This document shows positions 235 through 26,773 of a stretch of 64,000 bases of DNA, piece by piece. The number at the start of each line of letters is the position of its first letter. The stretch's first letter is position 1. The DNA is taken from IMG/VR virus record IMGVR_UViG_3300042879_003566, positions 1 to 64,000 of that record. The stretch is one strand, 5' to 3'. The DNA is from a virus. A program made the position numbers and the translations under genes. The notes under the pieces were generated by a model. That model had not been told where the DNA came from and did no database searches. It worked only from the letters and a program-made list of their open reading frames with translations.

Positions 235-1611
235 ATGGCTAAAGTTCGTATTAATGGGGATACATCTGGTTACATCGAATTAGCTTCCCCTGCTGCTGCT
301 GGATCCAATACAATTACCCTTCCGTCGAGTAACGGTAGTGCTAACCAGCTGCTTAAAAACAGTGGTACAGCTGGGACCTTGGACTGGTCCACACTCACTG
401 AAGATTCCAGTGGAAACTTAAATATTGATAGTGGGACGTTATATGTAGATGCAAGTAATAACAGGGTGGGTGTTGGGACTACGAGTCCACGCAATGTATT
501 AGACGTAAATGGAACTATATATGTAGCAGGTGGCAATCAAATTCAAATTACAGGTAGTGGTGGAACAACTGGTCTTCAACTAATTGGTCAAGATGCAGCC
601 GAATCTTTAATTGGCACAATGAGTGCGCAAGCACTTGCCATAAGAACCAATTCTACGGAACGTGCTCGTATTGATAGTTCTGGGCGTTTGCTAGTTGGCA
701 CGTCTTCTAGCGCCAGTACAACTGATGCGCAATATGGTCTATTGCAAATTCAGGGTAACGGTACAAGTTCTTCAGGTGGTGCAATTCTTACCTTAAGAAG
801 GGGTGAAGCAGCTACCAGTATTACTTCTGGTGAAACATTAGGATACATCGTTTTTACTGATACTTCTGGGAACAGGTTTGGCGAAATTTACTGTGATGCT
901 GATGGCACGGCAGGTTCAAGTGATTATCCAGGCCGCCTAGTGTTCTCCACTACCGCCGATGGAGCGAGCAGTCCGACAGAGCGGATGAGGATTACGAATG
1001 GTGGACTGTTAAAAGCTACAACTGGTACTCAAACAAGCCGATACACAAATAGCACTAACCACGCAATTGTTAGCGATAAAAGCACTGAATTTTTACTTGT
1101 CTGTAACCATACAAGTTCAACAAATCCAAATGGAATTGCGATTGAATACACTGCAGCTAGCCCTAACAATACTAGCAATAACTTCCTTGAATGTATTGAT
1201 TCTACAACTGTACGAGCTGTTTTTCGCTCAAACGGCGGCTTAGCCAACTACAGCGGTAACAATGTTAATCTTTGCGACCGCAATGCCAAAAAAGACATCG
1301 CACCTGCCGATGGAACATGGGATTGCCTGAAAGAGTGGGAAATCGTCAATTTCCGTTATAAGGACCAACCCGATGATGCCGATCTAAATATGGGCGTCAT
1401 TGCCCAGCAAATTGCTGAAAGTTGCCCAGAAGCAATCACTGTCTTCCAAGAAGCTACTGAAGATCAACCAGAGAAACTTGGTGTCAAAGAGCAACAAATG
1501 ATGTGGATGGCCATCAAGGCTCTCCAAGAAGCTCAACTTAGGATTGAACAATTAGAAACCTTAAACGTTTCGTTTGAAGCACGTCTTGCTGCCCTGGAGG
1601 TGAAGCCATGA
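235..1611 (+). CDS. Tail fibre protein with C-terminal S74 chaperone domain (Cys in place of Ser)
   Basis: 458 aa. The body holds low-complexity fibre repeats of the types DSSGRLLVGTSS and GRLVFSTTADGASSPTERM, as in many cyanophage fibres. The C-terminal ~115 residues match the peptidase S74 intramolecular chaperone, which trimerises fibres and then cleaves itself off: CDRNAKKDI, a conserved GVIAQQI segment, and a final coiled coil (ALQEAQLRIEQLE). The usual SDxRLK motif has Ser then Lys five residues on; here Cys347 and Lys352 occupy those positions. The stop overlaps the next start by 4 nt (ATGA), so the two fibre genes are translationally coupled. The virion role is inferred from family knowledge. 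Confidence 0.88.
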   Translation: MAKVRINGDTSGYIELASPAAAGSNTITLPSSNGSANQLLKNSGTAGTLDWSTLTEDSSGNLNIDSGTLYVDASNNRVGVGTTSPRNVLDVNGTIYVAGGNQIQITGSGGTTGLQLIGQDAAESLIGTMSAQALAIRTNSTERARIDSSGRLLVGTSSSASTTDAQYGLLQIQGNGTSSSGGAILTLRRGEAATSITSGETLGYIVFTDTSGNRFGEIYCDADGTAGSSDYPGRLVFSTTADGASSPTERMRITNGGLLKATTGTQTSRYTNSTNHAIVSDKSTEFLLVCNHTSSTNPNGIAIEYTAASPNNTSNNFLECIDSTTVRAVFRSNGGLANYSGNNVNLCDRNAKKDIAPADGTWDCLKEWEIVNFRYKDQPDDADLNMGVIAQQIAESCPEAITVFQEATEDQPEKLGVKEQQMMWMAIKALQEAQLRIEQLETLNVSFEARLAALEVKP

Positions 1612-3389
1612 GTACCGTTAAAGTAATCCAAATTCAGCACCCAAGTGCTGCCTCTGCTGCTCTCACCCTGGATTCCAGCGGTAACCTTACTACCAGCGGT
1701 ACCCTTACCTTCCCTGCAGGCTCGGCATCTGCACCAGCTATTCAAGCCACTGGCGACCCAAACACCGGACTGTTCTTTCCAGCAGCAGATACCATCGCAT
1801 TTGCAGAAGGTGGTACCGAAGTATTAAGGATTGATTCATCTGGACGATTAGGTCTGGGGACTTCTAGTGCTGACGCACGTTTAACAATTCAGCGTCCGAC
1901 AAACAATCAAGGCATCTCTGGTGGAATTTCCTTCAAAGGGCAAGATGGAACAACTCAGGGCGGCATCGGAACTGATGGCGTAAATACTAACAACCTTCAG
2001 ATCCTTGCAACTCAGGGTATTTATTTCCACACTGGCAATACAGACGGCACAACAAACATCCGCGCCACACTTGATTCCTCAGGCCGATTAGGGATTGGCA
2101 CTACTTCGCCCAGCGTTCGCTTGCATGTAAACGTCGATTCTGCGTCCGAAACTGACGTTGCCCGTTTTCAGGCAACAGATGGCTCAGATGTTCAATTCCT
2201 CGACATTGGTGTTGATGCAGCGAGCAATCTTGTCTCCTACGACGCAACCGGCAGCACCGGCGGAGCGCATGTATGGAGGAGAGGCGGAAGCGAGGCGATG
2301 CGAATTGATAGTTCGTCGCGTCTGTTAGTTGGCACGTCTTCGAGCCGCACTGATTACAAGCTACAGGTAGAGGGAACTGCATCAAGCAACGGGTGGGGAT
2401 CTTTTGTTCATAATTCAAATGATTCTACAGGTGCAATTTTTAAACTGCTCAAGTCAAGAGGAACAGCCGTTGGCAGCAATACTGTCGTTCAAAGTGGTGA
2501 CTCTCTTGGAAGGATTGACTTTGACGGTGCAGATGGGAGCACCAATCAGACCGCTGCAACTATTCGTTGCGACGTAGACGGCACCCCTGGCGCTGGTGAC
2601 ATGCCAGGCCGATTAGTGTTCTCCACTACGGCAGATGGCACTTCTAGTCCTACGGAGCGGATGAGGATTTCACAAGGGGGATTTGTTGGAATTGGCGAAA
2701 CAGCACCAGACCGTCAATTAACAGTTAAAACAACTGAAAATGGGCGCTGGGTAATTTCTGGACAACATACTCAAGCAAGCGGACAGCTACTGCATCTCAA
2801 TGCCAATAGCAGCTCTTATGCCGATGTAATGAGCCAACTGAGATGTGATCGCGCTGCAAATAGTGCTTATTCATTTTTCATAATGGACTCTAACTATGCG
2901 GCTACCCCCGACCGAGAGTTCACGATACGTGGCGATGGCAACGCCTTTGCAGATGGCACTTGGTCCGGTGGCGGCGCCGACTACGCCGAATACTTTGAAT
3001 GGAGCGACGGCAACCTTGATGAGGAAGACCGCCGTGGTATCAGCGTTGTTCTGGATGGCAATCAAATCCGCCCTGCTGCTGATGGCGAAGATCCCATTGG
3101 CGTCATCTCTGGTAACCCCAGCGTGGTCGGTGATGCTGCTTGGAACAAGTGGGTCGGCAAGTATTTGCGCGACGACTACGGCACCTACATCCTTGATGAA
3201 AACGGTGACCGACAGCTCAACCCCGCCTACGACCCCGATCAGGAATACGTTCCCCGCGAACAACGCCCAGAGTGGGATTGCGTTGGTCTGATGGGAAAAC
3301 TCCGCATCCGCAAGGGTCAACGTACCGGCAGCCGTTGGATCAAGATGCGCGACATCAGCGATTCCGTTGAAGAATGGTTGGTCCGCTGA
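1608..3389 (+). CDS. Tail fibre/appendage protein with C-terminal peptidase G2 domain
   Basis: 593 aa, beginning on the ATGA shared with the upstream fibre gene. The N-terminal two thirds are the same repeat type (DSSGRLGLGTSS, GRLVFSTTADGTSSPTERM). The last ~145 residues (GGGADYAEYFEW ... GVISGNPSVVGDAAWNKW ... MRDISDSVEEWLVR) look like the peptidase G2 autoproteolytic chaperone known from phage neck appendages, a different fold from S74. Two adjacent fibres with different maturation domains suggests a heteromeric fibre or a host-range cassette. Several stretches are nearly identical in DNA to the other two fibre genes. Confidence 0.85.
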   Translation: MSTVKVIQIQHPSAASAALTLDSSGNLTTSGTLTFPAGSASAPAIQATGDPNTGLFFPAADTIAFAEGGTEVLRIDSSGRLGLGTSSADARLTIQRPTNNQGISGGISFKGQDGTTQGGIGTDGVNTNNLQILATQGIYFHTGNTDGTTNIRATLDSSGRLGIGTTSPSVRLHVNVDSASETDVARFQATDGSDVQFLDIGVDAASNLVSYDATGSTGGAHVWRRGGSEAMRIDSSSRLLVGTSSSRTDYKLQVEGTASSNGWGSFVHNSNDSTGAIFKLLKSRGTAVGSNTVVQSGDSLGRIDFDGADGSTNQTAATIRCDVDGTPGAGDMPGRLVFSTTADGTSSPTERMRISQGGFVGIGETAPDRQLTVKTTENGRWVISGQHTQASGQLLHLNANSSSYADVMSQLRCDRAANSAYSFFIMDSNYAATPDREFTIRGDGNAFADGTWSGGGADYAEYFEWSDGNLDEEDRRGISVVLDGNQIRPAADGEDPIGVISGNPSVVGDAAWNKWVGKYLRDDYGTYILDENGDRQLNPAYDPDQEYVPREQRPEWDCVGLMGKLRIRKGQRTGSRWIKMRDISDSVEEWLVR

Positions 3390-3395
3390 GACCTT

Positions 3396-3414
3396 GTAGT
3401 CCTACTCACTAATT
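3396..3414 (+). repeat. Fibre-gene trailer repeat, copy 2
   Basis: GTAGTCCTACTCACTAATT, 6 nt after the TGA of the G2 fibre gene. All 19 nt match copy 3 on the minus strand; the first 15 match copy 1. Confidence 0.8.
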
Positions 3415-3446
3415 AATTGGTTTAAAATAAAGAAAAACATTTGACC

Positions 3447-3770
3447 ATGGCTAACGCTACCTGGGACATCGCAAACCTTGAGCGCCACCTCCCCGATGGT
3501 GACACCTGCCCTGACGGCGCCATCTACACCGTTCACTACACCGTCAGCCTCACAGAAGATGGTGAAACTGCCGGTGCCTATGGCAGCGTTGGCCTTGGCG
3601 CTCCCGACCCCGATTCCTTCACTCCCTTCAGTGAAGTGACCAAAGAAGAAGCCGTTAACTGGGTGCTCTCTGCCCTGGGCCCCGATCAAGTTGTCTCCAT
3701 CGAAGAGGCCCTTTACAACCAGATCCAACAGAAGGTGCACCCCACTTCTGCTGATGGTGTGCCCTGGTGA
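3447..3770 (+). CDS. Conserved cyanophage hypothetical protein
   Basis: 107 aa from ATG 3447; an in-frame TTG two codons earlier is less likely. The protein is acidic with a beta-rich N-terminal half (IYTVHYTVSLTEDGE) and a helical C-terminal half. It resembles small proteins that sit beside fibre or lysis genes in cyanophages, but I cannot assign a function. It lies between the fibre genes and the lysin. Confidence 0.7.
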   Translation: MANATWDIANLERHLPDGDTCPDGAIYTVHYTVSLTEDGETAGAYGSVGLGAPDPDSFTPFSEVTKEEAVNWVLSALGPDQVVSIEEALYNQIQQKVHPTSADGVPW

Positions 3771-3812
3771 TTCGGATAAACCGAAATCATCGGCTAACTT
3801 GAATTAATAGAC

Positions 3813-3846
3813 CTGACCTAAAGTTGTATTAAAAGCTTTAGGTCAG
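3813..3846 (+). promoter_or_regulatory. 11-bp perfect hairpin abutting the lysin start codon
   Basis: CTGACCTAAAG (3813-3823) and CTTTAGGTCAG (3836-3846) pair perfectly around a 12-nt loop. The 3' arm ends at the base before the ATG at 3847, and no Shine-Dalgarno sequence is visible. In the mRNA the ribosome-entry site would be double-stranded, suggesting translational control of lysis. Confidence 0.65.
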
Positions 3847-4866
3847 ATGTCCATAAAACTTCTGGATGCCGTTGAGCATTTTAAGAATCTTCCTCATCAA
3901 ATAGAGGCATGGGAATGGTTGCAGCAAGCAATTACCCCTGACCTTCTGGAAGAATTTGCAGAAAAATATCGGGAAGCTCCCAAAGAAGAATTTGCCAACA
4001 CCTGGGAAGGTGTCCTTGCTGCAGCACAAAAAGTAGGCGCCAAATACCCAGAGGTTGTAGCCGCTCAGTGGGCATTGGAAAGTGCATGGGGCAAGCACAC
4101 ATCCTGCAATCACAATTACTTCGGTATCAAAGACGTTCAAGGCAGTGGCTGTTGCGTCAAGACACAAGAGGTGTACAACGGTAAGGAAGTCACAATTGCC
4201 GCTTGGTTCAAACGATTCCCAACCCTTTACAGCTGCGTTGAGCATTTAGTCAATCGCTGGTACAAAGACTACAAAGGATACAAAGGAGTCAATAGGGCTG
4301 GCAGTCGCAACGAATGCGCACAACTCTTGACGAAAGAGGGATATGCCACAGACCCGAACTACGCTACAAAACTGATCCAAATTATGGATCAAAAGTTAGG
4401 TACTGCAGGCACAGCACCGAAACCCACAGATCCACCGCAAGCGCAAAAGTTCACACCCTGGAGTCCCTTCAGTTACAAAGTAACTCCGCATATCACATAC
4501 GGAGAGCTAACCCTTGGTGAGGAATCCAGGCGCTTTACCAAGCAATACCAGTGTGATACAGCACTTGAACTCTGCCGGTTCCTGGAAAAGGTCCGCTCAC
4601 AATTTGGTAACAAACCAATTGTCATCACAAGTGGGCACAGGCCGCCAGCCGTCAATCAAAAAATTGGTGGCGCAAAGAATTCCGAACATCTATACTCCGG
4701 TCCCGATGAAGGCGCCGTTGATTTCTACATCAAAGGTGCAGACACCTATGCCGTTGAAAAATACTGCGACAAAAATTGGCCGTACTCTGTTGGCTATGGT
4801 GCAGACCGTGGGTTTGTGCATTTAGGAATGCGATTGGGGAAACAACGAATCAGATGGGATTATTAA
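3847..4866 (+). CDS. Two-domain endolysin: glucosaminidase-type N-terminus + peptidase M15
   Basis: 339 aa. Residues about 50-185 resemble the lysozyme-like N-acetylglucosaminidase fold (VVAAQWALESAWGKH with the catalytic Glu, NYFGIKD, AWFKRFPTLYSC). After a Pro/Lys linker, residues about 205-339 match a Zn-dependent M15A peptidase: SGHRPPAVNQKIGGA, a SEH pair, AVDFYI and FVHLG supply the metal ligands and active site. The enzyme would cut both glycan and peptide parts of host peptidoglycan at lysis. No signal peptide is seen, so a holin would be needed; a small membrane protein lies just downstream at 5030-5194. A perfect hairpin covers the region before the start. Confidence 0.88.
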   Translation: MSIKLLDAVEHFKNLPHQIEAWEWLQQAITPDLLEEFAEKYREAPKEEFANTWEGVLAAAQKVGAKYPEVVAAQWALESAWGKHTSCNHNYFGIKDVQGSGCCVKTQEVYNGKEVTIAAWFKRFPTLYSCVEHLVNRWYKDYKGYKGVNRAGSRNECAQLLTKEGYATDPNYATKLIQIMDQKLGTAGTAPKPTDPPQAQKFTPWSPFSYKVTPHITYGELTLGEESRRFTKQYQCDTALELCRFLEKVRSQFGNKPIVITSGHRPPAVNQKIGGAKNSEHLYSGPDEGAVDFYIKGADTYAVEKYCDKNWPYSVGYGADRGFVHLGMRLGKQRIRWDY

Positions 4867-6533: not shown

Positions 6534-7205
6534 CTATCCCTCATCATAATCGGGGGGATCCTTGGCGCATAAGGGATGACGTATGGTATGGCGATAGGAA
6601 TCACGAATGACATCATTTTCTCTTCCGGCGTGAGAAGCATTGGTGATCAGCATTAATTGCTCTGGCCTGAACTCCGTCACAAACGGATGGACATTCGCAG
6701 GTGGCATCCCGATATTCCAGCTGGAGATCAGATGAAGTGGGTTGCCGCACCAGGGATTACCACATGCCTTGCTGATGACAAGCGAACCGACATCCCCCCA
6801 AGCACATTGGTAAATCAACTTTTGTGGCGTGACGTTTTCAGAGGCACGTCCCGTATAAAACGAACGATACGACGGGAAGCACATACGCCTGGGCGTCTTG
6901 GCACCAGGGAGATTCATGTCCCAACATTCGTCCGGTTCACCGATTCGTACTGATTTCCACAAGGATTCGTACTTGTAGTTGTAGTACGGGTGAAGGAAGT
7001 TCATGTTGAAGCCACAGATATTCGATTTGATCTTGATGACGCAGTGGTAGCACCAATGGTGTTGTGCGTCGCGAATGGTGTGGCGGTGGGCGCAGGGATA
7101 CCCCCTGTAATACCCATGAGACTTAAGTTGAGAATCGTCTAGCGAGTCAATGTCCCGGACGTAGCGGAAGGCAATTGGCTCAAGGACTTTGGTCAAGTTG
7201 GCCAT
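6534..7205 (-). CDS. Cys/His-rich HNH/His-Me-finger-like protein
   Basis: 223 aa. The N-terminal third has a Cys/His-rich segment (YPCAHRHTI ... HWCYHCVIKIKSNICGF). The middle has CGNPWCGNPLHLI, resembling the CxNPxCxNPxHL zinc-loop of His-Me-finger homing-type endonucleases. The start overlaps the stop of the upstream HNH-like gene (TGATG). Nuclease activity is inferred; it could instead be a Zn-binding DNA-binding protein. Confidence 0.65.
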   Translation of the reverse strand: MANLTKVLEPIAFRYVRDIDSLDDSQLKSHGYYRGYPCAHRHTIRDAQHHWCYHCVIKIKSNICGFNMNFLHPYYNYKYESLWKSVRIGEPDECWDMNLPGAKTPRRMCFPSYRSFYTGRASENVTPQKLIYQCAWGDVGSLVISKACGNPWCGNPLHLISSWNIGMPPANVHPFVTEFRPEQLMLITNASHAGRENDVIRDSYRHTIRHPLCAKDPPDYDEG

Positions 7206-7558
7206 CAGTTCCAGCTCCAGTCAGGCTTGCGTTCCTTCCGTCGGGGCTGCCAGCAGGCGTGCAACTCCCTCCTGTTGTCCCGGTTGTGGTTGTAGTGGTG
7301 GTGCTTCACGCCGTGGGAGTCAGGGCAATCGCCAGTGCGTAAGTAGTAGACGATGCGATGGGCAAGATACACCTCGTTGTCGATGGACACCTGGTAGAAC
7401 CCCGACTGCCTGTGGCGGCGCTCAACAAACTCCCCGGACCCCACCCACCGGAGCCCACTGGGGTGATCGTCCGTTAATTCCAGGAGTTGTTCCAAGTGCC
7501 AGAGGGGTGGGAGTGGTTTGTAGTTGTGTGGCAAAACAGAGAATAGGAATGAAATCAC
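7205..7558 (-). CDS. HNH endonuclease-like protein
   Basis: 117 aa from GTG 7558. It contains YLAHRIVYYLRTG followed by HHHYNHNRDNRRELHAC, matching the YxAHRxxxxLxxG ... DHxNxxxxDNRxxNL layout of phage HNH homing endonucleases. His replaces the usual Asp before the first catalytic His. The first ~9 codons lie inside the left arm of a large inverted repeat, so the true start may be further in. It is coupled to the next gene. Confidence 0.7.
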   Translation of the reverse strand: MISFLFSVLPHNYKPLPPLWHLEQLLELTDDHPSGLRWVGSGEFVERRHRQSGFYQVSIDNEVYLAHRIVYYLRTGDCPDSHGVKHHHYNHNRDNRRELHACWQPRRKERKPDWSWN

Positions 7559-7710
7559 TTAATACTAATGCGTGTTACACGATGCGCACGGTGTAGTAAC
7601 GTATTCTTCTTTTTCTTATGAGTCTCATGAGAAGCAGAATGGATGACTACACGCCGGCCACCGTGTAACGCGCCCTTCTATTAAACGAAATAACTCCTAT
7701 TCTCTGTTTT
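7533..7710. repeat. 178-bp imperfect inverted repeat (long hairpin)
   Basis: Two arms fold around one centre near 7621/7622. 7533-7547 (AAAACAGAGAATAGG) pairs perfectly with 7696-7710. In the same register pair 7559-7564/7679-7684, 7574-7581/7662-7669, 7591-7596/7647-7652 and much of 7602-7611/7632-7641, leaving a short unpaired loop. It overlaps the 5' end of the HNH-like gene and lies between that gene and the terminator of the glycosyltransferase gene. Confidence 0.8.
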
Positions 7711-7778
7711 ACGCACATCTACCCCTCTTTTCACCTCACCCGCCTCACCTGCGTCTCATTCCAAGACTCCTGGCCAAT

Positions 7779-7811
7779 AAAAAACCCCACCTTCCGTAGC
7801 GGAGGGCGGGG
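7779..7811 (-). terminator. Intrinsic terminator after the glycosyltransferase gene
   Basis: On the minus strand a 12-bp GC-rich stem with one mismatch (7785-7796 with 7800-7811) and a 3-nt loop is followed by six T. It lies ~40 nt beyond the stop at 7850. Confidence 0.85.
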
Positions 7812-7849
7812 GGAGAGGCAGTGCGTTCATGCCTTCATGCCGCATGAAT

Positions 7850-9124
7850 TTATGCAGGCACCAATTCCTTCTTCTTTTTCTTGTCCTTCTTTTTCTTACG
7901 AGGCGTCTCAGCCGAGACGGTGTCTTCTACGCTGTGATCCACATCGTTCATCACGTCCTCGAAGATGCCGCCAAATTGGGAGGCCACCGTATCCCACGCA
8001 AACTGAGCATCGGTTGCCCGCTGGTAGCACAGTTCGGCCACAGCGTCCAACTTATGACGGTTTTCGTATAGATCCGTGAGGATTTCAGCGAGGTGATCGT
8101 CGGAGGGGCAGGGCATCTCCCGTGCGTAGTTGATGTCCACATCCACGTGGTCGCAACGGATCAGCTTGCCGTAACCGTTGAAGATCTCCTTGCAGGAGGT
8201 GTGGTCAGGCACCACCTGTGCAACGCGGCAGGCAGCGTGTTCAAAGTTAACCAGGCCCCAGCCCTCACCTTTGCAGGTATTCACGCCCACATCGACAGCG
8301 TTATAGATGTTATTCAGCATCTCCACCGACACGTTCGGCGGGGAAGGCCCAACCGTGGTGTTGATGATGCGGTGGTTCGGGTCCATGCCATTCTTCTGCA
8401 TTTCACGAGCGAAGACCGACATGATGTCCCAGCCCTGGTCCTTCTGCCCCATGTGCAGATACAGCTGGGTATCAGGCTTGTCCTTAGCAAACTTGGCGAA
8501 GGCCGAAATGGTTAAGTCAATCCGCTTACGGAATTGATTACGGTTGCCATTGAAGACAATGAAGATGTCCTCAGGCAGGCCCAGTGCCCTCCGAGCTTCC
8601 TTCTTATCCACTGGATAGAACTGACCAGGTGTCACACCATGGGGAATCACCGCGATGGGCTTGTTGATTCCACCCTTCACAAACTCGTGAGCGCCAAATT
8701 CCGTATAGGAAATGATGGCGTCCCAGTCGTTAGCAGTCTCCGACAGGCACCCGATCCAGTTGTAGGAGTCCATGGGGACATAACCCACGAACTTAAACTT
8801 CTTCTGCTGGTGCAGATCCTGGATACGCCGGTACTGTTCGTTGACGATCCACATGTCGTTGATCGAGAAGACGATGTCAGGCTGCTCGGCCTCAACGATC
8901 TCCCGAATGCGTTCCTCACCAAAAGGTGCGGTTTGGTAACGGTTGGACGAAGGGTACATCTTGTACCGTTCACAGAGCGGATGCGGGTCGCCCCACCAAT
9001 TGTTCCCCAGAACAACAATTTCAAAGTTGTCATCCAACCGTGAGATGACGTTTTCTGTTACGCGGGCAAAACCCGTCATTGCGACGATGTCTCCGCACCA
9101 CAAGATCTTCGTCTTTTTACTCAT
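7850..9124 (-). CDS. GT-B glycosyltransferase (GT4-type)
   Basis: 424 aa. The N-terminal half has the nucleotide-binding start (KILWCGDIVAMTGFARV) typical of GT-B folds. The C-terminal half carries VFNGNRNQFRKRIDLTI and GEGWGLVNFEHAA (residue ~286), the E-x7-E motif that binds the donor sugar nucleotide in GT4 enzymes. It probably transfers a sugar to a virion or host-surface glycan, or less likely to modified DNA. The C-terminus is a Lys-rich tail (KKKKDKKKKK). The sugar-nucleotide cluster at 14-19.5 kb is a plausible donor source. A terminator follows. Confidence 0.85.
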   Translation of the reverse strand: MSKKTKILWCGDIVAMTGFARVTENVISRLDDNFEIVVLGNNWWGDPHPLCERYKMYPSSNRYQTAPFGEERIREIVEAEQPDIVFSINDMWIVNEQYRRIQDLHQQKKFKFVGYVPMDSYNWIGCLSETANDWDAIISYTEFGAHEFVKGGINKPIAVIPHGVTPGQFYPVDKKEARRALGLPEDIFIVFNGNRNQFRKRIDLTISAFAKFAKDKPDTQLYLHMGQKDQGWDIMSVFAREMQKNGMDPNHRIINTTVGPSPPNVSVEMLNNIYNAVDVGVNTCKGEGWGLVNFEHAACRVAQVVPDHTSCKEIFNGYGKLIRCDHVDVDINYAREMPCPSDDHLAEILTDLYENRHKLDAVAELCYQRATDAQFAWDTVASQFGGIFEDVMNDVDHSVEDTVSAETPRKKKKDKKKKKELVPA

Positions 9125-9147: not shown

Positions 9148-9507
9148 CTATACACAAATTGACGGTGTTGTTGACCGCAATAGTTCCTTTTCTTCCGATA
9201 TTTTTGCCTTGAGTTTATGCTTTAAAAACTCTGCCGCCTTATGAGTCTTCGTCTTATCGCCACAGGTATAAAGATCGATAGCGCAATAACCCAACTCCGG
9301 CCAGGTGTGAATCGATGCGTGGGATTCAGCCAGGAGTGCCAGTAGCGTCACCCCTTGCGGCTGAAACTTCTCACCAAAGATCCGAAGAATAGTGGCGTTG
9401 CTCATCAAGAGTGCCGTCTCAAGCAACCTGGACAACTCGTCATAGTCATCCAGGAGTGCATGATCACACTCATACAGATCCAATATGAGGTGGCGTCCGT
9501 TGCTCAC
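9148..9507 (-). CDS. speD: S-adenosylmethionine decarboxylase proenzyme
   Basis: 119 aa, the normal size of the short prokaryotic SpeD. LLAESHASIHTWPE holds the self-cleavage site: cleavage between Glu61 and Ser62 would turn Ser62 into the pyruvoyl cofactor. His67 and Cys82 (YTCGDK) fit the processing and proton-donor residues. The product, decarboxylated SAM, is the aminopropyl donor for spermidine. No spermidine synthase is seen, so it would feed host SpeE. SpeD is a known cyanophage auxiliary gene. The start is GTG 9507, just after the primase-helicase stop. Confidence 0.93.
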   Translation of the reverse strand: MSNGRHLILDLYECDHALLDDYDELSRLLETALLMSNATILRIFGEKFQPQGVTLLALLAESHASIHTWPELGYCAIDLYTCGDKTKTHKAAEFLKHKLKAKISEEKELLRSTTPSICV

Positions 9508-9509
9508 AA

Positions 9510-12149
9510 CTATTCTTCATCAACTTCTATTTTGTCACTACTCTTCTTATCCAGAACATCTCCGTAGTGGATTCGCCACTCCTCTTTATTCAAACCAACT
9601 TCCACGATGGATGGATATTTGGCATATTTCTGATCTGATGCGCGGCATGCAATATTCACGACGCGTGCACCACGCCTTTGCTCCTTGAATTTGTAGACAT
9701 TCAGCTGGAGCTGGTGGACACACACGTCCATCAACAGGGTTTCAAATCGACTGCGCCCCAGGATATTGCTGTTGGATGCCCTGGAGAATTCGCAGTAGCT
9801 GGCATACAGAAACTTATCCCAATTTGCGTACACATTTGAAGTGCCCGGCGCTGCATGCTTAGCCAAGCCAACGGCAGTCGACACACCTGGATCAAAGACA
9901 ACACAGTGCTCCATCCAATCCATGATTTGGTTGGACTTCAGGATCTGCTCACTGTGGTGCTTGGCAAAGAACGCAACCTTCTTGGTGGTTTCCATGAGGT
10001 ATTCGCGCATCTCCGCTTCCGTCATGTCGAGCACCCAATTCACCAACCCAGGGAGAAGAGATGCAAAATCCCCGAAAGGATGTCCGTTATCGTCCATGTC
10101 AATGAGGACGCGCTGTTCTGCAGAGCTGCCAGTAAAAGGCCGATCAAAAGGAATGGTGAGGCGACGACGAGCCAAACCAGAAGTTGGGTCAGTAGTTTGA
10201 ATGGGTTCATTGGCAGTGATGATGACAAGTCCGTTGAACTTGAAGGGCTTCTGCGAGCCAGCCTGGAACTTGCGCTCCTTACGAATCAAGTCGCGTCCGG
10301 TGACTGCTTTGAGTACAGAAACCGAGCCACCATATCGCTCCACATCATTGAAGAGCAGAAGCTTTTTCTTGTAGAGATTCGCAGTTTCAAAGCGGTTCTT
10401 CTCCAGGTGCTCCAGGGAGGAGATCATGGCATTTTCATCACCGACCAATGCGTGGGCCAGGTTGGCATAGGTCGACTTGCCGGACTTACCAGGGCCAACG
10501 ATCTCAACAAACTTTTGGATTTCCGAATGGCTTAACAGGACTGCCCGCAACCATGCCCGCAGAACCTGGACCCGACCCCAGTTATCTTCTTGCGCCTGCT
10601 TCAACCACTTAATGATTGGTTCACAAGTTGCGCTGGGCTCATAGTTGTATGGAAGCTGTTGGGTCATGTAGCGATCCCGATCAAACGGCATCAGCTCCCT
10701 GGACTTCACATCCAGAATCCCATTGGTGAACAGCAGGTAGTCGTTGCCTTCATACCAGTCGTCATAAATGGTGGTGATCCGAAGCTGCTCCATGACATCG
10801 TTGATCAGGTTCATGCTGTAGCCATTGGGCAAGCGATGAGCCTTGATGCGTTCCAGCTGGTCCTTGATGGAACCCTTCATCTCAACATCGGACACATGAG
10901 ACCAAAGCCCAGGCTTCCGATATTCATAAATGTAAAAAGAACCTTGATTTTCGCTGTATTTCAGATTTTCCCCATACATTTGCAGCAGCTCATCCGACAC
11001 CACATCCGATGAAGGGTTACGCGGCTTCGGTTCTTTTTTCCCTTGCGGGGCCATTTTCATTATGTTCTTTTTGCCCTGAGGCGCCCAGGCTTGCCGTACT
11101 TCTTCGCCAATCGACTCCAGGGGGAGAGACGTTACACCGAGCTGATCCATACCGATTTGATTTACAAGATTTGAAACATGTTCCAGCATTGAATCATCTA
11201 CGTTCATGGCACGATGATCTTGTGAAGGCTCCCAGCCCTGCTCCTTCGCTACATGCAGCAAAGAGCCAAGTCCCCTGCCACCATCACGGTTGAAGGAAAG
11301 CCACCGCCTGTGGCACTCACCTTCCCGGTATTTATCCGACTGCTTGGACCATTCGTCCCATACATCCAGCAGTGATTCATCCAGCTGGTGGAGCGTCTGA
11401 CCAACTGTGATCCAGATGTCGTAATCATCAGCCGCTTCCGGCGGCATACCCCAAGTTGCTTCTGTCGCGAGCTTGATGTCTCGCTCCAGTTCAATGACAC
11501 TGTTGATTGCAAAGTTGGGGCCGACAAGTCTAGTGGTCTCCTTGGCGGGCACCCCCTGTTTGACATTTTTATTAATGATGGCGTTCAGCAGCCAGTCCGG
11601 TAGCTCAGGCAACCGATCAACCCACTCAAAACCCTGGTCTTCTGCGGTGTAATAACCCTCAGTTTCTGGGTGCAGGCCCATGAGCACACCCTGGTGCTTG
11701 CGCCACAGAATTTCAAGTTTTTCGCGGTTTGCTTCGCCGTGCCACGTATATTTGTTACGCGCAAAATGTTTATGTTTCTCCCGATCTAGTCGATAAAGCT
11801 TCCGTTCGCGCCCCTCTTTACCACTGAGGATTGTCAGTGTTGGGGGTAGAGCTTCTGCAAATGACTTACCAGCGATTGCTTCGACAAGCGGATAGATGCT
11901 CGGTCCATCAACATCCACCCAGACCAGACCATAAGGATGATTGAAAGCAGGGCCGCCGAGTAGGCCGATAGCTTTGCATTTGCCACCGACGATTTCCTCT
12001 TCAATTTCCTTGACACCAAACGGACTACCCTGCCATCCCTGGATGTACGGATCTTTTTTGGCACCAAGCGGCGTAAGCGGCCAGTCAAGGGGAATGTAAT
12101 CAAGGCGAATCTCTCCGGGCCGAAGCGCCTGCTGGTTCATGCTCGTCAT
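9510..12149 (-). CDS. Primase-polymerase / SF3 helicase replication protein
   Basis: 879 aa. The N-terminal region carries GLVWVDVDGPS (residue ~78), the acidic motif of the archaeo-eukaryotic/primpol primase domain. Residues about 545-680 form a superfamily-3 helicase of the D5/P4 type: GPGKSGKST (Walker A), LLLFNDVERYGG (Walker B), then VIITANEPI (sensor). It would prime and unwind the phage origin. It is the only helicase candidate in the window and lies directly upstream of speD. The C-terminal ~180 residues resemble the winged-helix part of P4-type primases, but weakly. Confidence 0.88.
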   Translation of the reverse strand: MTSMNQQALRPGEIRLDYIPLDWPLTPLGAKKDPYIQGWQGSPFGVKEIEEEIVGGKCKAIGLLGGPAFNHPYGLVWVDVDGPSIYPLVEAIAGKSFAEALPPTLTILSGKEGRERKLYRLDREKHKHFARNKYTWHGEANREKLEILWRKHQGVLMGLHPETEGYYTAEDQGFEWVDRLPELPDWLLNAIINKNVKQGVPAKETTRLVGPNFAINSVIELERDIKLATEATWGMPPEAADDYDIWITVGQTLHQLDESLLDVWDEWSKQSDKYREGECHRRWLSFNRDGGRGLGSLLHVAKEQGWEPSQDHRAMNVDDSMLEHVSNLVNQIGMDQLGVTSLPLESIGEEVRQAWAPQGKKNIMKMAPQGKKEPKPRNPSSDVVSDELLQMYGENLKYSENQGSFYIYEYRKPGLWSHVSDVEMKGSIKDQLERIKAHRLPNGYSMNLINDVMEQLRITTIYDDWYEGNDYLLFTNGILDVKSRELMPFDRDRYMTQQLPYNYEPSATCEPIIKWLKQAQEDNWGRVQVLRAWLRAVLLSHSEIQKFVEIVGPGKSGKSTYANLAHALVGDENAMISSLEHLEKNRFETANLYKKKLLLFNDVERYGGSVSVLKAVTGRDLIRKERKFQAGSQKPFKFNGLVIITANEPIQTTDPTSGLARRRLTIPFDRPFTGSSAEQRVLIDMDDNGHPFGDFASLLPGLVNWVLDMTEAEMREYLMETTKKVAFFAKHHSEQILKSNQIMDWMEHCVVFDPGVSTAVGLAKHAAPGTSNVYANWDKFLYASYCEFSRASNSNILGRSRFETLLMDVCVHQLQLNVYKFKEQRRGARVVNIACRASDQKYAKYPSIVEVGLNKEEWRIHYGDVLDKKSSDKIEVDEE

Positions 12150-24505: not shown

Positions 24506-24524
24506 AATTAGTGAGTAGGACTAC
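24506..24524 (-). repeat. Fibre-gene trailer repeat, copy 3
   Basis: Read on the minus strand this is GTAGTCCTACTCACTAATT, identical over 19 nt to copy 2. The TAG at 24521-24523 is the stop of the third fibre gene. Confidence 0.8.
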
Positions 24525-26773
24525 GCGCCCTTGAGAGCTGCTACTTCAGCTTCCAAGGTTTCGATGCGACCGATGGCTTCCTGAAGCGCAGCAGTCAGCA
24601 ACGGCACAAGCTTGGATTGGTCGATGCCTTGGTAGACGGGATTGCCGTCTTCGTCCACTTCATCCTTGGCGCCAGTGACGCACTCAGGAACAACAGCTTG
24701 GGCTTCGTGAGCAATGAAACCATCAACCTGTATATCGGGATCAGCGATAAAGTTGAAGCGGCTGGGCTTGAGTTGCAGCACACGCTCCGATGCGCCAGTG
24801 AGTGGAATGATGTTTTCTTTTAAGCGGTAGTCGGAAGAAGTTGTAAACGACGTTGCCGTACCGCTAGTGCTGATTGAACCAACAACACCATTACCATTGC
24901 TGAAACTAATGTGAAATCTAGCTGCGGTTGAACTTGCATAACACTCAAGTGCAACGCCACTTGCATTATTAGTCGCGCCGCTAGTGGCAGTTAGATATGC
25001 AGTTGTATTTACACCGCCAGCGTTAACGGTTGACCCATAGCCAATTCTTTGGGCGCTGTTAATGCGTAAAGCCTCCGTCGGGCTGCTCGCTCCATCGGCG
25101 GTAGTGGAGAACACTAATCTGCCCGGAATATCTGTATTTGAAGAACTTGCTCCGTCAGTAAAAACATCGATTGATGCATAACCATAATTGCTGCTGGTGT
25201 TGTCGTTACTTATGAATCGCAGAGCGCCAATCTGGGTATTAGCAGCGGTTGGGCGAGCTGTGTTGCGCCTAATGTCTATAGCGCCAGTAGCATTGTCAGA
25301 CGTGTTTCCCGCAAAAACGGCTCTAGCGTTGCCATCGTAACTAGACGTGCCAACTAACAGGCGTCCCGAACTGTCGATGCGGGCACGTTCTGAACCAACA
25401 GTATTGAATACAATCTGACCAGCACCGGCATTGTTGTTTATATCAAACTGCAAAAGTTCATTTGAGCCTCCATTGTTGGAGATCGCTGCAGTATTAACAT
25501 TACTGCTATTGGCGAATCGAATTTGAGACCCAAGGCCGCCGGAGGTGTTAAAACCAATATAACCGGTAGCAGTCTTAACATCAAAGATCCAGCTAGGCGT
25601 CTGAGTGCCAATCCCTACTCGGCCACTGGAATCAATGGTAATCCCCGTAGAGTTAAAAGAATCGCCTACATTGATTCCAAAGGTATTGGTGCTGCTGCGA
25701 TAGCCGGATGTCCACTGAACCGTGTTGGTGGAGTCGGAGTATGTATGCTTTGCATGGTTGCCCGCAGCGCCAGCCTGAAGCCTGACGTTTGTATCTGCAG
25801 CGGCTCCTGCATTGATATGCAAGATTGAGCTAACAGTCGAAGTCCCCAGACCTACACGCCCGCTTGAATCTATACGCAGTCTTTCAGTAGGACTTGCTGC
25901 ACCATCAGCCGTTGTACTGAAGACCAGGCGCCCTGGCATGTCATTGGTGCCAGGCGTCCCATCTACTTCACCGGCAACAGTTGCCGCTTCGATAAAACTA
26001 GTACCATCTGCACCGTGAAAAGTTAAAGTTCCAAGGCGGCTTCCACTGACAACCGCAGCATTTGAACCAAGTGTTGCTGCACCTGATCTTCCAAGAAGAA
26101 CGTAAGGAGGGTCATTGCTTACAGCATTATTAATTACGCTTAAAGCACCCCGTGCAGTAGAACCACCTGTTCCTTCTGTTTGAGTTAAAGAACTAAGAGT
26201 TGTGCCAAAGAAATTACTACGCGCTGTAGATGTGCCAACTAACAGGCGTCCACTGGAGTCTAGGCGCATGCGCTCGACGCTGTTTGTCCAAAAAGTAATT
26301 GGTTGCGCTGCTGTCTGAAATAAACGGGTCAATCCTGTAGTGTCTTGACCGATTAAGAACGGATCAGGGCTGCCATTGTTGCCACTGAAAGTGGCATACG
26401 CAGCGGCAGATGTACCAGCAAAAACATGCAGCGATGTTTGCGGGCTTGCTATGCCCACCCCAACACGCCCATTCGCATCAACGAACAACCGCCCAGTGCC
26501 ATTAGTTGAGATGGCTACTTGGTTTGCCCCTGGTGAGTACACTCCAGTGTCTGGGTCTGTGGTCCAGCTGTAGGTTGGGGCGGAAGCACTACCTAATGAA
26601 ACAGCTTCTAATTGACCAGCGGAATCAATCCGTAAGCGTTCAGTTGTATTAGTTGCAAACGACAGTTGATTTGTCGCAGACAGGTACACACCATTTGCAG
26701 GTGCACTACTTGTTCCAGTAAAAGAAAGTGCCTGAACTAAATTATCAATTAGCTGGGCTTTTGTCTGCGACAT
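24521..26773 (-). CDS. Tail fibre protein with canonical S74 chaperone domain
   Basis: 750 aa. The body has at least five copies of the (S)SGRLLVGTS / GRLVFSTTADGASSPTE repeat type, some nearly identical in DNA to the fibre genes at 235-3389. The C-terminal 104 residues form a peptidase S74 domain with SDYRLKENI (catalytic Ser647 and Lys652), DGFIAHEAQAVVPE and a closing coiled coil (EAIGRIETLEAEVAALKG). The domain would guide trimerisation and then release itself. It is on the opposite strand and over 20 kb from the other fibres, which fits module shuffling or a phase-specific receptor-binding protein. Confidence 0.88.
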   Translation of the reverse strand: MSQTKAQLIDNLVQALSFTGTSSAPANGVYLSATNQLSFATNTTERLRIDSAGQLEAVSLGSASAPTYSWTTDPDTGVYSPGANQVAISTNGTGRLFVDANGRVGVGIASPQTSLHVFAGTSAAAYATFSGNNGSPDPFLIGQDTTGLTRLFQTAAQPITFWTNSVERMRLDSSGRLLVGTSTARSNFFGTTLSSLTQTEGTGGSTARGALSVINNAVSNDPPYVLLGRSGAATLGSNAAVVSGSRLGTLTFHGADGTSFIEAATVAGEVDGTPGTNDMPGRLVFSTTADGAASPTERLRIDSSGRVGLGTSTVSSILHINAGAAADTNVRLQAGAAGNHAKHTYSDSTNTVQWTSGYRSSTNTFGINVGDSFNSTGITIDSSGRVGIGTQTPSWIFDVKTATGYIGFNTSGGLGSQIRFANSSNVNTAAISNNGGSNELLQFDINNNAGAGQIVFNTVGSERARIDSSGRLLVGTSSYDGNARAVFAGNTSDNATGAIDIRRNTARPTAANTQIGALRFISNDNTSSNYGYASIDVFTDGASSSNTDIPGRLVFSTTADGASSPTEALRINSAQRIGYGSTVNAGGVNTTAYLTATSGATNNASGVALECYASSTAARFHISFSNGNGVVGSISTSGTATSFTTSSDYRLKENIIPLTGASERVLQLKPSRFNFIADPDIQVDGFIAHEAQAVVPECVTGAKDEVDEDGNPVYQGIDQSKLVPLLTAALQEAIGRIETLEAEVAALKGA

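Follow-up and report, generated by a model that had tools for sequence, protein, structure and literature searches.

Replication of pRN1 requires a 100-nt stem-loop downstream of the Prim-Pol/helicase gene (Berkner et al. 2014, PMC4234260). In the pRN family, the structure of this stem-loop is kept while its sequence drifts (PMC4234260), and the pRN1 origin is described as being without iterons. For Bordetella phage BIP-1, whose replication protein contains PriCT_2, a stem-loop origin 3' of the gene has been proposed (PMC4234260). We recovered the BIP-1 palindrome at approximately 26,592-26,724 of AY526909 with a score of 35. It comprises four inverted copies of AACGAGGC and a TTTCTCAT/ATGAGAAA apex. 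The top-scoring palindromic region of BPP-1 (L221 13236-13511) is a low-complexity repeat array and was set aside for the second hit, which lies 3' of the primase. The 'endonuclease' gene beside the BPP-1 palindrome was considered as an HNH gene, for which Pfam gives no support. In PICI-type islands, an AT-rich stretch with an iteron set on either side lies 3' of the gene for the initiator (PMC6092414).

The window analysed here, a stretch of 64,000 nucleotides from the 80,457-bp virus record IMGVR_UViG_3300042879_003566, comes from a virus related to Synechococcus phage S-EIV1. Its primase and the BPP-1 protein share one Pfam architecture. Read along the minus strand, the genes and sites around the locus are ordered as follows:

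9510-12149, minus strand: primase, a Prim-Pol/PriCT_2/D5_N/SF3-helicase (DUF5906) replication protein (Pfam, all domains above cut-offs); proposed initiator
9148-9507, minus strand: S-adenosylmethionine decarboxylase gene (Pfam AdoMet_dc, E = 1.4e-34)
7850-9124, minus strand: glycosyltransferase (GT) gene (Pfam Glycos_transf_1); one flank of the palindrome and a query for fetching relatives
7779-7814, minus strand: intrinsic terminator-like hairpin seen in the sequence, between the GT gene and the palindrome
7520-7722, no strand: imperfect palindrome with conserved position across relatives; predicted replication origin core
7205-7534, minus strand: small HNH-like gene whose start codon is likely the TTG at 7534, on the edge of the palindrome; missing in some relatives
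6534-7205, minus strand: P223, weakly endonuclease-like (phrog_1872 endonuclease, E = 7.7e-10); present in the compared relatives

The long DNA palindrome is real. The sequence-only reading had placed a 178-bp imperfect palindrome at 7533-7710, which is borne out, with the symmetry reaching 7520-7722 around a centre at approximately 7621. Folded as single-stranded DNA, 7533-7710 forms a single long hairpin of -37.9 kcal/mol. Shuffles of the same segment reach -15.2 +/- 3.1 kcal/mol (z = -7.4), and 0 of 200 are as stable, so the folding check proposed at the outset gives a stability far beyond that of shuffled controls. In this fold, the outermost 16 bp are perfectly paired, where 15 bp had been claimed. 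In a gapped stem search across the window, 7520-7722 scores 34.1, the next-best palindrome scores 13.8, and the best palindromes in five shuffled windows score 10-15. No other palindrome of such strength is present in the whole virus record. The arms are complementary in relatives as well, rather than unrelated sequence. The palindrome does not have the form of an intrinsic terminator, a short GC-rich stem with a T run after it; the terminator-like site is the separate hairpin at 7779-7814, and 31 of 52 relatives carry such a site in the same gap.

Like BIP-1/BPP-1 and the pRN1 family, the window virus combines a Prim-Pol, PriCT_2 (shared with BIP-1) and D5_N/SF3-helicase protein, the putative initiator, with a long stem-loop 3' of its gene. 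As in BIP-1, the palindrome is made of inverted repeated boxes, and as in the pRN family, the structure is kept despite sequence drift. Unlike the BIP-1 and pRN1 stem-loops, however, it is about twice as long and carries a GTCTC/GAGAC apex; and whereas those adjoin the initiator gene, it is separated from the primase stop by two genes (1.8 kb) in the 3' direction. The locus also resembles PICI (SaPI and relatives) in its SF3 primase-helicase as putative initiator and in a candidate origin 3' of the gene, with two repeat sets on either side of AT-rich DNA. It differs in that the available part of the PICI account (PMC6092414) describes no long nested palindrome for the islands, and in that the window virus has no helper-phage context.

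To place the palindrome among relatives, approximately 190 loci were gathered by scans with GT, P223, and a primase profile. With loops of at most 25 nt, a strict palindrome search overlooked members whose apex is larger, and larger loops were then allowed. Gene order is nearly constant among the relatives, and so is the position of the palindrome 3' of the primase; approximately 118 of the 136 loci with primase, GT, and P223 pass the palindrome threshold in the gap from GT to HNH/P223. This gap falls into 34 sequence families. A contiguous palindrome well above dinucleotide shuffles is present in 31 of them, two have split arms, and the palindrome is also present in L036, beside a second or duplicated HNH gene. 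The sequence drifts among relatives while the arms stay complementary; the structure is thus conserved despite sequence change in the 31 families and L036, and it is decayed in one subclade (L144, L145, L148, L149, L152-L156, L158, L205, L208, and L181), which has the outer boxes and has lost most of the symmetry. In the strict search, the palindrome is the strongest in five of six whole genomes; in the sixth, G005 (L146), it has a larger apex and scores 49.5 versus 20.5 for the next. S-CBS4 has only the glycosyltransferase in common, and its gene context differs.

In L036 (7389-8600), the palindrome is flanked by two copies of the small HNH-like gene. A 39.8-kb record, IMGVR_UViG_3300042914_002843 (L003/L046/L135), is 100% identical to the window in GT, P223, and primase and is evidently the same virus. 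In S-EIV1 (KJ410740 7027-7725), tblastn places the P223 homologue on the minus strand at 7033-7704; the record annotates just part of this gene and has two small CDS on the plus strand overlying it.

The distribution bears on mobility. The inverted-repeat form, and arms that flank a gene in three relatives, would suit a MITE-like or otherwise mobile element, or else a hairpin for packaging or recombination. However, the palindrome occurs once per genome and keeps a fixed position within a lineage whose flanking proteins differ by 30-50%, no empty site was found, and no transposase or recombinase lies beside it. The MITE-like element that had been offered as an option finds no support, given this single copy at the same position in all relatives. 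The packaging hairpin, another early option, fares no better: the palindrome is internal, neither at the genome ends nor near the terminase gene, which is tens of kilobases away in S-EIV1. We therefore hold this whole group of explanations to be extremely improbable. We reject both a mobile insertion and an appendage of the small HNH gene as readings of the palindrome, the latter because relatives without that gene keep it.

The relatives with split arms are L009/L105 and L100, in which both arms are kept with an inserted glycosyltransferase-like gene between them, and L172 is arranged likewise (L009, approximately 7388-8345; L100, approximately 2973-3890; L172, in the GT-HNH gap). Some 600-900 nt separate the arms in L009, L100, and L172. 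In these three, the cargo gene is placed as if it had entered at the apex, with both arms preserved. Because a gene lies between the arms there, the arrangement suggests that a cruciform is not essential in these relatives.

Split arms also bear on whether the palindrome acts at the DNA or the RNA level. If it formed a long, structured leader at the 5' end of the HNH/P223 transcript, this would fit the strong RNA folding energies of all members and the position of the palindrome before a start codon. An RNA hairpin is expected to favour G·U pairs. On the presumed transcript strand, however, the stem mismatches of 29 families comprise 99 G·T versus 120 A·C (p = 0.18), which is no excess of G·U over A·C; the Rfam search matched only two tRNAs and nothing at the palindrome; and the arms of L009, L100, and L172 stand apart around a gene. 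We accordingly give very little credence to an RNA leader. Selection looks DNA-level, given the mismatch counts and the split-arm relatives, and the comparison of sequences points to the palindrome as a set of DNA-level sites.

Within each arm, from the centre outward, the apex motif (GTCTC/GAGAC) comes first; the inner box (I) is next, then the middle segment (M), and the outer box (O) is last. In the window, these parts are as follows:

7533-7548, plus strand: outer box O (AAAACAGAGAATAGGA), a perfectly paired 16-bp end next to the codon at which the HNH-like gene likely starts
7575-7599, no strand: middle segment M (TTACACGATGCGCACGGTGTAGTAA), roughly self-symmetric and paired with 7645-7669 in the fold
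7602-7614, minus strand: inner box I (TATTCTTCTTTTT on the plus strand), a degenerate copy of the outer box, assigned with the help of within-arm O/I repeats in relatives
7618-7632, no strand: apex with TGAGTCTCATGAGA; GTCTC/GAGAC motifs are also at the apex in most relatives
7631-7642, plus strand: inner box I' (GAAGCAGAATGG), assigned on the same basis as I
7645-7669, no strand: middle segment M' (GACTACACGCCGGCCACCGTGTAAC), assigned from fold pairing
7695-7710, minus strand: outer box O' (TCCTATTCTCTGTTTT on the plus strand), the mirror of O and the other perfectly paired 16-bp end

Each palindrome thus has approximately four related boxes besides its apex. The outer box is approximately the reverse complement of the inner box of the same arm, and the middle segment is often self-symmetric (for example, ACATTTT..AAAATGT). 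At up to four mismatches, AAAACAGAGAATAGGAA has only two sites in the genome, both within the palindrome. The box sequence varies among phages (TATTCTGTGTTTT, TATTGTGTGTTTT, ATTCGCCATTT, CCAAAGTCTGC, GTATAGTCGG, and others), and O, I, I', and O' tend to match inside one phage, so that the boxes change jointly between phages. Across 47 loci, the outer box recurs in the inner region above shuffles (Wilcoxon p = 3e-6), and a phage's own boxes fit its inner region better than the boxes of other phages do (p = 2e-4). In the window's virus (L135), the outer box matches the inner region better than shuffles with p = 0.02. Taken locus by locus, the outer/inner box test reaches p <= 0.01 in 13 of the 47 and is non-significant in more than half; therefore, four good box copies are not universal. 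Besides the apex copies, extra GTCTC/GAGAC motifs, often in inverted pairs, lie in the stretch that separates the palindrome from the terminator-like hairpin, at 7740-7780 of the window and in the same gap of relatives.

To determine which protein the boxes track, box similarity was compared with protein similarity between phages at 47 non-redundant loci; five loci, in which the automatically chosen box lay outside the outer box, had been left out by hand. Within the primase, box similarity correlates with the D5_N segment (rho 0.52; partial 0.41 when the other genes are taken into account), with the SF3 segment (0.38), and with the C-terminus (0.42), and the value for the Prim-Pol segment is 0.01, phage relatedness being controlled by partial correlation and label permutation only. 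The difference between the primase halves is firm, with a bootstrap interval of 0.29-0.63. GT residues 201-400, the nearest part of GT, give only 0.05; therefore, simple linkage does not explain the correlation pattern. Box similarity also correlates with GT residues 1-200 (0.41) and with P223 (0.40). The advantage of the primase C-terminal half over whole GT is marginal (interval -0.00 to 0.34), and among HNH-bearing phages only, GT 1-200 is approximately equal to D5_N. These sequence correlations are suggestive of a box type that follows the D5/helicase half of the primase and not the Prim-Pol half. A PICI-type iteron origin would have two repeat sets, specific to each element, that the initiator recognises; the lineage studied here has two inverted box sets that change jointly and track the D5 half of the primase, and other genes correlate as well.

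By profile (A1), the only solved structure found for the primase is the SaPI5 primase-helicase 7ola (E = 2.3e-13). Foldseek matches of the low-confidence predicted model are AsfvPrimPol, D5/E5, and 7ola; the mean pLDDT is 57.5 for the full-length model and 67.7 for the C-terminal model, and the fold searches are weak. The C-terminus is predicted to contain helices and a beta hairpin, with pLDDT 80-90 in that part, and its top PDB match is the P4 origin-binding domain 1ka8, which is non-significant (E = 0.29). The model suggests a C-terminal winged helix in the putative initiator, the DNA-binding domain expected of an initiator of the pRN1/BIP-1 type. Phage P4 (ori1/crr, alpha protein) is alike in its D5/SF3-type initiator and, if the suggested winged helix binds the boxes, in short repeats read by a C-terminal domain, but alpha has a bacterial-type (Toprim) primase, and the P4 origin is built of iterons, not of a long palindrome.

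An origin for an SF3 initiator is most likely the best reading of the locus, ahead of a MITE, a terminator, or an HNH appendage, and of the four options first put forward for the palindrome, the replication origin is the one that the evidence favours. We consider it reasonably probable that the S-EIV1-like cyanophage lineage has its replication origin, or the initiator-binding core of one, in the palindrome. The sequences show the anatomy of the palindrome and how it evolves; origin activity, binding by the primase, and involvement of melting or of a cruciform are what we infer. The Prim-Pol/D5/SF3-helicase protein, encoded 1.8 kb away, would bind the repeated boxes of both inverted arms through the domains of its helicase half. 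Head-to-head assembly on the symmetric site would place two helicase rings, the AT-rich apex region would melt, and the Prim-Pol domain would prime synthesis. GC skew, which had been proposed as a check, lends no support to an origin and does not mark a bidirectional one here: in none of six genomes does the palindrome coincide with the skew minimum, and in several it is nearer the maximum; skew is therefore not used as support.

The strongest rival to the origin is a promoter or operator function, which could coexist with it. In this case, the palindrome would be an operator/promoter array of the HNH-like/P223 operon, with a symmetric regulator on the four boxes. It is bounded by the terminator-like hairpin on one side and by the next gene's start codon on the other, and in the marine relatives L068 and L069, the arm facing the HNH gene contains a sigma-70-like TTGACA-N15-TAATAT, a possible promoter of that operon. 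Arms that survive as separate sites where a gene is inserted at the apex, and repeated boxes that change jointly, would also fit a repressor. However, an operator of 200 bp with nested symmetry would be a long one, the mirror arm faces the glycosyltransferase, where there is no divergently transcribed gene for it to regulate, the box is absent from the genome's other promoters, and there is no adjacent regulator gene. Regulation also leaves the link to the primase D5 half and the BIP-1 parallel unexplained. We regard it as unlikely.

The small HNH-like gene does adjoin the palindrome, as had been noted, but its HNH likeness is at low significance only (Pfam HNH_3, E = 0.0057, below its cut-off; phrog_99 HNH, E = 5.8e-6). 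Homologues of the protein begin with M(P/S)(H/R)NYKxxPPLW, and the start codon is therefore likely the TTG at 7534-7532, at the palindrome edge. Accordingly, and contrary to the sequence-only reading, the left arm probably does not encode the start of the gene; the palindrome would end at that codon instead. A recognition or homing site that the small HNH protein or P223 nicks or cuts would fit the direct adjacency and the correlation of HNH protein similarity with box similarity (rho 0.43; 0.54 in a smaller set). Against it, allowing for the primase removes the P223 correlation (partial -0.08), the relatives showed no empty-site alleles, and the palindrome is retained without the small HNH gene in L007, L097, L112, L113, and S-EIV1, directly or closely upstream of P223. 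The palindrome thus does not require the HNH-like gene, and the suggestion that it is the target of that nuclease keeps a possible side role. We consider a nuclease site highly unlikely as the explanation of the palindrome.

In a related proposal, the HNH-like nuclease reads the same boxes as the initiator with matched or opposed specificity, and box diversity is driven by that conflict. The protein may serve as a weapon aimed at the origins of rival phages, or it may assist initiation as a nickase. A parallel is the origin-directed nuclease Odn of ICP1, whose specificity follows the origin repeats (PMC8263062), much as an HNH-like gene lies beside the boxes here. Odn, for its part, borrows an initiator-like binding domain (PMC8263062). 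We view shared reading of the boxes as quite unlikely.

We also scanned ten other phages with D5/SF3 primases. In four of the ten (Proteus phage RS10pmA, Flyfo podovirus Tbat2_2, Klebsiella phage KP13-27, and a Halorubrum tailed virus), the strongest palindrome is intergenic and repeat-rich, at distances of 0.1 to approximately 9 kb from the primase; in the Halorubrum virus, it lies 100 nt 3' of the primase and holds seven copies of ACCGTTAC. The palindrome scan found no convincing palindrome near the primase in the other six. Repeat-rich long palindromes of D5/SF3-primase phages are located at L212 24654-24923, L218 25375-25643, L219 22242-22433, and L220 6593-6725 and are candidate origins.

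Many freshwater and marine samples contain S-EIV1-like cyanophages, for which the literature searched reports no replication origin. If the origin reading is true, the palindrome offers a defined locus for how Prim-Pol/SF3-helicase phages start replication and supports the older pRN1/BIP-1 origin proposal. Dozens of naturally diverged initiator/origin pairs would then be at hand for working out the recognition rule, and the palindrome would serve as an origin marker for other phages with this primase type.

Elsewhere in the window, 658-3414 and 24506-25987 contain inverted stretches of 70-87% similarity, which link the plus-strand ORFs 235-3389 with the minus-strand ORF 24521-26773. They include a perfect 19-nt repeat at both 3' ends, and the linked genes are probably paralogous structural genes.
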